From positions 1,106,501 to 1,170,500 of the forward strand of contig NZ_CP026530.1 of assembly GCF_004006315.1 (NCBI RefSeq): a DNA stretch of 64,000 nt, read 5' to 3'. The translations under genes were made by a program, and so were the position numbers. The notes beneath the pieces were generated by a model. That model saw only the letters and a program-made list of their open reading frames with translations. It did no database searches and was not told where the DNA came from. Shown here piece by piece: positions 13,057 to 50,036 of the stretch. Each line of letters opens with the position of its first letter. The first letter of the stretch is position 1. Source of the stretch: Nautilia sp. PV-1. Its GTDB lineage: Bacteria > Campylobacterota > Campylobacteria > Campylobacterales > Nautiliaceae.

Positions 13057-13772
13057 AACTAAAAGCCGCTATCAGCTATGACGGAAGCAAATTTTACGGT
13101 ATGCAAAAACAGCCTGACAAAATCACCGTTCAGGGAGAAATTGAAAATTCTCTACAAAAACTAAACATATCTTCAGCCGTAACACATGCAGGAAGGACTG
13201 ACAGAGGAGTTCACGCCCTTAACCAGGTAATTGCCTTCGACATCCCAGACTTTTGGGAAATTAACAAACTTAAAAATTCTTTAAATAAAATCCTCCACCC
13301 ATATATACATATTAAAAAACTTGAATTTGCAAATGCCGGCTTTAACCCAAGATTTGATGCCAAAAAAAGAAGCTACAGATACATTTTATCACATGTTTAC
13401 TCACCTCATACTTCAGATTACATAACTTATTATCCTCAAAAAATAGACATACCGCTTATAAAAAAGGCCCTTAAACGTTTTGAAGGAAAACACGATTTTG
13501 AGTATTTTGCCAAGACCGGAAGTGAAGTTAACTCATATATAAGAGAAATTTACAAAACGGAAATTTACAAATATAAATCATTTACTGTAATTAAAATAGC
13601 CGGAAACGGCTTTTTAAGAGGACAGATAAGACTTATTGTGGATTTTATACTGAAAATAAACGAAAACATTTTAACATTGGACGATTTAGACAAACAGCTT
13701 TCGAAAAAAGAGCTTATATCCAAGCATTTAGCACCGCCTAACGGGCTTTATCTTGAGAGAATATGGTATTAG
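13050..13772 (+). CDS. truA: tRNA pseudouridine(38-40) synthase TruA, probable ATT start
   Basis: TruA modifies U38-40 in the anticodon arm. The catalytic aspartate lies in AGRTDRGVHALNQV, and YRYIL, NGFLRGQIRLIV and PNGLYLERIWY mark the C-terminal half. The first ATG (13101) would cut off the first conserved strand, because codons just upstream read KAAISYDGSKFYGM, the normal TruA N-terminus. That frame opens at 13038 and contains no ATG, GTG or TTG before 13101. The only plausible initiation codon is ATT at 13050, preceded by AAGGAAA with a 5-6 base gap. It would give about 240 residues and overlap the upstream stop. Confidence 0.85.
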   Translation: MLKLKAAISYDGSKFYGMQKQPDKITVQGEIENSLQKLNISSAVTHAGRTDRGVHALNQVIAFDIPDFWEINKLKNSLNKILHPYIHIKKLEFANAGFNPRFDAKKRSYRYILSHVYSPHTSDYITYYPQKIDIPLIKKALKRFEGKHDFEYFAKTGSEVNSYIREIYKTEIYKYKSFTVIKIAGNGFLRGQIRLIVDFILKINENILTLDDLDKQLSKKELISKHLAPPNGLYLERIWY

Positions 13773-14445
13773 TGTCAATTTCATAAAATTCGCTTATGCT
13801 GCAACCTTTGCACTGATTATATACCCCAAGTTTAAAATAGCTGTAATACTTTTCCCAGTAAAAAACGTCTTTCAGTACTTTTAATTTTTTTTGATAGTAA
13901 ATTTTTAAAATATTTTTTTTGATTTCAACTTTTATATTTAAAGGATTATGTAAAACACCTAAATATATTTTTGAATAGCTGTTTTTATTTTTTATTACTG
14001 CCCATATTCCGTTTTTTATATTTTTGTATTTTTTAATCCAGACTATTCTTAAAAGAGGTTTATTAGGAGCTTTTGACTTTTTTGGATCAGCATGAATCTG
14101 TAAAAAAGTAAATTCCCTGTTACAGTTTACAGGATATACATTACACAATACATGTAAAAAAACACCGTTTTTGTTATCCGTTTTCCATTCTTTTCTAAAA
14201 CGAAACTCGCTTCTTTTATGATTACCGCACACTTTAAACACTATTCTGTTTTTATCCAAAACAAAATATTTGTTATTGATACTGGGCTTGAATTTTCCGT
14301 AACCTATTGAATATTCAGGATTATATCTGCTTGTAGGAGCCTGCAGCTTTACGGACTGTTTCAGGAGATTTTTAAACGGATTGTTGTTTTGATAAGCATA
14401 TATATTTAAAGTTAATAAGCAATAAATAAAAACTTCAAATATCAT
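13738..14445 (-). CDS. Alginate lyase family protein (polysaccharide lyase family 7)
   Basis: A 235-residue protein with a signal peptide (about residues 1-18, hydrophobic, ending near IYAYQ). The rest fits a single PL7 (alginate lyase 2) jelly-roll domain. The three diagnostic motifs are present and in order: RSEFR (78-82), QIH (116-118) and YFKLGVYNQ (203-211), giving the catalytic Arg, Gln, His and Tyr of the family. It would cleave alginate or a related uronic acid polymer by beta-elimination outside the cytoplasm. It overlaps truA tail-to-tail by 35 bases and the upstream nuclease gene by 11 bases. Finding such a gene in an apparent chemolithotroph-type genome is unexpected. Confidence 0.78.
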   Translation of the reverse strand: MIFEVFIYCLLTLNIYAYQNNNPFKNLLKQSVKLQAPTSRYNPEYSIGYGKFKPSINNKYFVLDKNRIVFKVCGNHKRSEFRFRKEWKTDNKNGVFLHVLCNVYPVNCNREFTFLQIHADPKKSKAPNKPLLRIVWIKKYKNIKNGIWAVIKNKNSYSKIYLGVLHNPLNIKVEIKKNILKIYYQKKLKVLKDVFYWEKYYSYFKLGVYNQCKGCSISEFYEIDTNTIFSQDKAR

Positions 14446-15145
14446 TATTAATAATTTTATAATTTATAATATCAACATTTTCTTTAATCCTTGCATAAGC
14501 TGCTTTCGTTAAAATTCTATCAGGTATAGCTAAAATAAATTTTCTTTTTTTATACTTTATAACTTCTACTTTATGTTTTTTTAAATATAGAATATAATCC
14601 GATAAAAATTGTTTAATATGATTATGATTTATTTTACGTTTTTCCCAATTTTTGCATTGAATGCATAAATACTCACTTTTTGCTTCATCAATAGCTATTA
14701 AGTCGATACCCTCATCTTTTTTTCCTTTTAATGCAGAGTTATCAATAACTTTATATCCTTGTTTTTCAAAATATTTCTTTACTATTTGTTCAAATTTTTT
14801 TCCTTTTATTTCATAACTTTTTCTCATATTATAAGAATAAGTATTAATACTTTCAAGATCCACTTTTTCTTCTTTTAAAAATTCTGTATTTTTTTCATTT
14901 TCGTACGAATTTGGCTTATATTTATCCTCATTCTTTCTAACATAGGTTTCAATATCATTTAGAAATTCATTTTCTTCTTCAAATTCAATAGTGAAATTTT
15001 CATTATTTTCTTTTAATTTTTCTAAAAGAGCCCTTTCTCTTTGAAACTGTTCTATTTTTTCTTCAGTTTTTTTATCTATATAAATATAAAACCCAGCCAA
15101 TATTAATAATGAAGGGCCTATAACCTTTAGAATATCAATTAACAC
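14435..15145 (-). CDS. Membrane-anchored Mrr-like restriction endonuclease domain protein
   Basis: A 236-residue protein starting at GTG 15145 with GGAGTAATT in front. One N-terminal membrane helix (about 8-23), a charged coiled-coil linker (about 25-110) and a C-terminal PD-(D/E)xK nuclease domain (about 112-236): Glu119 in KKFEQIV, Asp148 in EGIDLIAI and Gln163-x-Lys165 in CIQCKNW form the active site of the Mrr/type IV-restriction fold. It may degrade foreign or modified DNA at the membrane (inference). It lies just outside the left attachment site of the prophage. Confidence 0.8.
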   Translation of the reverse strand: MLIDILKVIGPSLLILAGFYIYIDKKTEEKIEQFQRERALLEKLKENNENFTIEFEEENEFLNDIETYVRKNEDKYKPNSYENEKNTEFLKEEKVDLESINTYSYNMRKSYEIKGKKFEQIVKKYFEKQGYKVIDNSALKGKKDEGIDLIAIDEAKSEYLCIQCKNWEKRKINHNHIKQFLSDYILYLKKHKVEVIKYKKRKFILAIPDRILTKAAYARIKENVDIINYKIINNDI

Positions 15146-15235
15146 AATTACTCCAATCTTTTTTATAAAATTTTAGCATAATTAAAAAAGGAGAAAAATA
15201 AATAAGATAAGTGACAGACACCATATTGATTAATT
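15146..15235. other. Host-side upstream region of the Mrr-like gene
   Basis: Short AT-rich stretch between the Mrr-like gene and attL. On the minus strand it holds a possible extended -10 (TGCTAAAAT, about 15170-15178) about 25 bases before the GTG start. Nothing else is recognised. Confidence 0.4.
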
Positions 15236-15252
15236 TTTTGGTTGCGGGGGCA
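15236..15252. repeat. attL core (17-bp direct repeat of the tRNA-fMet 3' end)
   Basis: TTTTGGTTGCGGGGGCA occurs here and again at 49957-49973, where it is the 3' end of tRNA-fMet including the CCA complement. The sequences diverge on both sides. This is the displaced tRNA end left by prophage integration. Confidence 0.85.

Positions 15253-49956: not shown

Positions 49957-50036
<80 letters not shown>

Follow-up and report, generated by a model that had tools for sequence, protein, structure and literature searches.

What is a lyase of the kind associated with algae doing in the genome of an apparently autotrophic vent bacterium? The question is raised by a single gene in the window, by which we mean the whole 64,000-nucleotide stretch of Nautilia sp. 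PV-1 that was analysed (contig NZ_CP026530.1, positions 1,106,501 to 1,170,500). The gene, its presumed functional elements and its immediate surroundings are as follows, in window coordinates.

13738..14445, minus strand: PL7 (Alginate_lyase2) gene, 235 aa (PF08787, AlphaFold2, PDB fold matches)
14395..14445, minus strand: putative signal peptide, residues 1-17, MIFEVFIYCLLTLNIYA (sequence; N-termini of relatives)
14227..14229, minus strand: C73, counterpart of NitAly Cys-80 (C73 and C215 near-invariant in the alignment)
14200..14214, minus strand: RSEFR motif with R78 and R82 (R78, E80 and R82 invariant in 36 PL7s; aligns to AlyC3)
14092..14100, minus strand: QIH motif with Q116 and the presumed catalytic H118 (invariant in 36 PL7s)
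13813..13839, minus strand: YFKLGVYNQ motif with the presumed catalytic Y209 and with Q211 (Y209 invariant in 36 PL7s)
13801..13803, minus strand: C215, counterpart of NitAly Cys-232 (near-invariant, as C73)
13101..13772, plus strand: truA, convergent 3' neighbour, overlapping the 3' end of the PL7 gene by 35 bp (PF01416)
14435..15145, minus strand: Mrr-like restriction endonuclease ORF with an N-terminal hydrophobic stretch (PF04471, E 2e-13)
15234..15252, no strand assigned: left attachment-like remnant of the tRNA-Met 3' end, TTTTTTGGTTGCGGGGGCA (matches the attachment region of congener G048 and the tRNA-Met end at 49957)

The PL7 gene and its product

That the ORF at 13738-14445 encodes a PL7 lyase is beyond doubt. 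It begins with ATG, and its product matches PF08787 with an E-value of 4e-20 and 73 bits (cut-off 29.7), residues 33-223 covering positions 7-221 of the 225 in the profile, or nearly its full length. It is the only PL7 in the genome (1,791,100 bp, a single contig), and the family was absent from all 14 control genomes. The closest PDB relative by sequence is AlyC3 (7c8g, E 8e-16). The AlphaFold2 model (mean pLDDT 89.8, pTM 0.85) matches the PL7 beta-jelly roll at the level of the overall fold when compared with the PDB: its top structure matches are all PL7 lyases (Foldseek E 1e-17), superposing with a VIA Z of about 26 and an rmsd of about 2 A over about 200 residues, and they include PyAly, AlyC3, AlyV and PsAlg7A/C, the majority solved with mannuronate oligomers. 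The glucuronan lyase Trichoderma PL7A (7nde) has the same fold, at Z 21. The initial annotation had called a PL7-type lyase with its catalytic Arg, Gln, His and Tyr in three motifs, and both the profile search and the structure prediction bear it out.

The sequence conforms to the family motifs R(S/T)E(L/F)R, Q(I/V)H and YFKxGxYxQ, and R78, R82, Q116, H118 and Y209 are invariant across the 36 aligned PL7s. Residues R78, R82, Q125 and Q246 of AlyC3 have been described (PMC8286568), and AlyC3 H127 and Y244 are named in the title of the mutant structure 7c8f. With roles assigned by analogy to AlyC3, the enzyme would act on alginate by beta-elimination, R78 and Q116 neutralising the carboxylate and H118 and Y209 serving as catalytic base and acid. 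C73 and C215 correspond to the cysteine pair of heat-stable vent PL7s, and a disulfide has been reported for NitAly-type enzymes (PMC5793052). The H146G substitution was considered as a loss of function and set aside; in the alignment PyAly carries Thr there.

Chromosomal setting and 5' end

In the window and in its congener, genome G048, whose PL7 is presumably that of Nautilia profundicola, the gene lies between truA and a tRNA-Met gene, and the convergent arrangement with truA is also found in the congener (L026). In the window the 3' end of the tRNA-Met gene (49960-50036, minus strand) holds a complete-looking tailed prophage, 15234-49960, with tail, sheath, head and terminase genes, which starts about 1 kb from the PL7 gene and has a copy of the tRNA-Met 3' end at either border, at 15234-15252 and from 49957 onward. 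The same tRNA-Met gene in the congener contains an unrelated 8.9-kb element flanked by a 50-bp direct repeat. This tRNA gene is thus an integration hot spot and, given the attachment repeats that delimit the prophage and the distinct element found there in the congener, the PL7 gene beside it is chromosomal.

The Mrr-like ORF lies between the PL7 gene and the left attachment site and is absent from this place in the congener, relative to which it is an insertion. Its stop overlaps the PL7 start, with 11 bp shared with the PL7 5' end, and no Shine-Dalgarno sequence was seen upstream of the PL7 gene. The putative signal peptide, MIFEVFIYCLLTLNIYA followed by YQ, combines a hydrophobic core with an AXA-like end and lacks a basic N-region; the N-terminus is MKK, MRK or MKQ in most relatives and MKI in the congener. 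It may be that the Mrr-like insertion displaced the upstream sequence that the gene once had, leaving a signal peptide without its basic residues. Of the signal peptide reported in the initial annotation, the core and cleavage-type end therefore stand and export is likely, but the missing basic N-region and the overlap at the 5' end with an ORF that the congener lacks make both the start and the export signal less certain than was stated.

Alginate operons in related genomes

Neighbourhood maps of 20 loci placed the PL7 gene inside a conserved gene run in most Campylobacterota loci at 36-47% identity. The order in Nautiliaceae is algA-PL7-algD-alg8-alg44-algG-algE-algK, with the lyase between algA and algD; in Nitratiruptor it lies beside algK. 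The AlgA proteins of these operons match the PMI/GMP profile TIGR01479, and AlgD matches GDP-mannose dehydrogenase (PDB 1mfz, E 2e-145) far better than it does UDP-glucose dehydrogenases. AlgG is recognised by NF038177 (E 9e-39), PDB 4nk6 (E 3e-32) and a DPHD motif, Alg44 by PDB 4rt1, AlgE by PF13372 and AlgK by NF038194, while Alg8 was assigned by its GT2 class and position. Because several of the NCBIfam matches fall below equivalog cut-offs, the proteins concerned are diverged members of their families. The cluster was also found in further MAGs by tblastn across all loci.

A lyase gene is part of the biosynthesis cluster in every known alginate producer, and its product clears the periplasm (PMC4444821). 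In Pseudomonas and Azotobacter this is AlgL, of family PL5, but a search of 23 genomes found no PL5 lyase. In the operons of Nautiliaceae and other Campylobacterales it is PL7 that fills the AlgL slot; examples from vent Nautiliaceae and Nitratiruptor are L032:7036-18001, L031:1-11325 and L038:8561-18001. An operon PL7 in this position would clear mislocalised periplasmic alginate and probably also trim or release matrix. Our literature search, to which the primary NitAly paper was external, found no description of alginate operons in Campylobacterota. The signal peptides of the operon PL7s of genus g4 (L031-L035), unlike that in the window, end in lipobox-like LFGC or LFAC, which suggests membrane-anchored lipoproteins.

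A search for related genes, proposed in the initial annotation and run here in Nautiliaceae, found PL7 in 11 of 21 genomes, 8 of which also have an operon-type alg8; wherever the contig of an alg8 genome is long enough, the PL7 sits within the alginate biosynthesis operon. All eight genomes with an operon-type alg8 carry PL7, against 3 of the 13 without (Fisher p 0.001, an optimistic value because the genomes are related). The window genome and G048 are two of these three alg8-less carriers. Their PL7 lies outside any algD-alg8-alg44-algG-algE-algK cluster, unlike that of their relatives, and a genome-wide search of both detected no Alg8, AlgG, AlgE, PL5 or PL15/17. An alginate operon elsewhere in the window genome was considered and rejected, as no Alg8, AlgG or AlgE was found; the only AlgD-like match is a nucleotide-sugar dehydrogenase at 30% identity. 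Both the operon membership of the relatives and the absence of the operon here are thus computed results, and the initial reading of the lyase as an oddity in an autotrophic vent genome gives way to that of a gene common in the family and mostly linked to alg8.

PL7 without detected Alg8 also occurs in G033, G028 and G009 and, because further copies lie in genomes without Alg8 (G033, G028), orphan PL7s occur in several lineages. The copy in G033 (L030:8154-8891) lies beside a dehydrogenase E1/transketolase-type operon, and that in G028 (L037:1678-2379) beside a ThiI-like gene. G062 has a second, diverged PL7 (L029:7339-8016) beside argJ, outside its alginate operon, with a lipobox-like LGC signal and without the cysteine pair.

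Possible roles and comparison with known lyases

In the tree, the PL7s of the window and the congener, which share a locus, are sisters (support 100/99). They belong to a Campylobacterota side of 22 rows, separated from the chosen outgroup with support of 100/100, and the heterotroph PL7s form a separate clade. Grouping of the pair with genus g4 gave an AU p of 0.19. Because the tree leaves the branching of this pair within the Campylobacterota PL7s ambiguous, the preference for operon loss over separate gain is one that we infer; most likely the gene was retained or regained alone, from the same stock as the operon PL7s of Nautiliaceae.

The pair is evolving rapidly: its NG86 dN/dS is 0.32, with dS near saturation, versus 0.03-0.15 for seven neighbouring genes, and 25-26 of the 82 positions that are fixed in ten operon PL7s have changed. 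Since the frame, the catalytic set and the cysteine pair are intact, purifying selection appears to persist, in weaker or different form. The same figures feed the main rival to a functional enzyme, a slowly decaying relic: a lyase drifting after loss of its operon, whose promoter and signal peptide suffered from the Mrr-like insertion. The raised dN/dS, 26 departures from fixed positions, atypical signal N-region, lack of a visible Shine-Dalgarno sequence and overlap with the inserted ORF would all fit, but two species retain a full-length frame, about 57% identical and with dN/dS clearly below 1, catalytic residues and C73/C215 are undamaged, and active AlyC3 has several of the same unusual residues (K152, S202). 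We consider such decay unlikely, though a reading to be reckoned with. Lower still is the probability that the enzyme acts on a uronate polymer other than alginate, for instance beta-glucuronan, an idea that draws on the fold shared with Trichoderma PL7A (Z 21) and on the fact that the window genome makes no alginate. Against it, the closest relatives in sequence and structure act on mannuronate, those in Campylobacterota are associated with genes for mannuronan synthesis, and NitAly cleaves alginate.

PL7 lyases of Vibrio, Shewanella and Psychromonas are alginate-catabolic, and such relatives are among the sequence matches. A cell feeding on algal or detrital alginate is nevertheless very improbable here. 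Uronate-degradation partners are lacking at the locus, as the initial annotation had noted, and, among the families tested, genome-wide: PL5 (PF05426) and PL15/17 (PF07940) are absent, and the genome-wide search for a KdgK-like kinase, made with the PfkB family model, returned a sole PfkB kinase whose frame of 483 aa has the length of a heptose kinase of the HldE type. The closest relatives of the gene, moreover, lie in biosynthesis operons, and the heterotroph PL7s in another clade. Proximity to the tailed prophage, about 1 kb away, might suggest a depolymerase that helps virions through host slime, but we give this almost no credence: the gene lies outside the tRNA-Met attachment repeats, it occupies the same place in the congener, whose tRNA-Met holds a different element, and it has no PHROG match and no IMG/VR relative. 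On these grounds an origin as phage cargo was ruled out.

Most likely, then, the gene encodes an exported lyase descended from or akin to the operon enzymes, or is slowly decaying. The reading that we favour, at a probability of about 0.62, is that of an exported, most likely endo-acting and mannuronate-preferring PL7, drawn from the operon-group stock, that cuts the alginate of neighbours and is not used for feeding; its activity, export, substrate preference and ecological role we infer. In the genus of the window the operon is absent and the lyase persists alone between truA and tRNA-Met. Outside the cell it most likely cuts the alginate of neighbouring cells, among them Nautiliaceae with the operon, and so would loosen mixed biofilms or allow the cell to leave them. 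A biofilm-related role, such as the release from a uronic acid biofilm suggested in the initial annotation, is plausible, and a precedent for a secreted lyase is Azotobacter AlyA3, which opens the cyst coat (PMC4444821). More tentatively, and with the balance of our judgement somewhat against it, we suggest that PL7 replaced the PL5 AlgL in the complete alginate operon of chemolithoautotrophic vent Campylobacterota and that operon-less sister lineages keep a secreted lyase directed against the matrix of their relatives.

Seen against the alginate operons of related genomes, an algae-type enzyme in an autotroph thus largely loses its apparent oddity. Alginate synthesis seems to be within the capacity of many vent Nautiliaceae, which have PL7 in the place of AlgL, and the lyase-only lineages offer a testable case of a matrix-degrading enzyme that persists without matrix synthesis. 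It is the replacement of AlgL by PL7, together with the orphan remnants, that merits the attention of specialists.

The PL7 at L038 (genome G064) is probably NitAly, because its cysteines fall at exactly 80 and 232. The original account of that enzyme is reportedly that of Inoue et al. in J Biol Chem, 2016 (doi 10.1074/jbc.M115.713230). NitAly is presented as a characterised PL7 alginate lyase from Nitratiruptor sp. SB155-2 (PMC5793052, PMC8286568). Like the window enzyme it is a PL7 of a vent member of the Campylobacterota, of similar length and with the same catalytic motifs, its Cys 80/232 equivalent to 73/215; it differs in being only about 36-37% identical and in that the G064 gene lies within an alginate biosynthesis operon, whereas the window gene lies outside any. 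The PL7 of Nautilia profundicola has also been named (PMC5793052). Since NitAly is characterised and the N. profundicola copy has been mentioned, PL7 of vent Campylobacterota is of a kind already in print. If G048 is indeed the source of that copy, as is probable, the N. profundicola enzyme is 57% identical to ours and occupies the same locus after truA, but lacks the upstream Mrr-like insertion and has a basic residue in its signal peptide. AlyC3 (Psychromonas, 7c8g) and PyAly (7w13) are the best PDB relatives in sequence and structure and have the same catalytic residues, at an identity of only 24-32%; AlyC3, further, comes from an alginate-degrading heterotroph, carries an insertion and is dimeric. 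AlgL of Pseudomonas and Azotobacter, finally, shares its operon slot and presumed role with the PL7s of the relatives, but as a PL5 enzyme it is an (alpha/alpha)n toroid and not a beta-jelly roll, and the two are not homologous.
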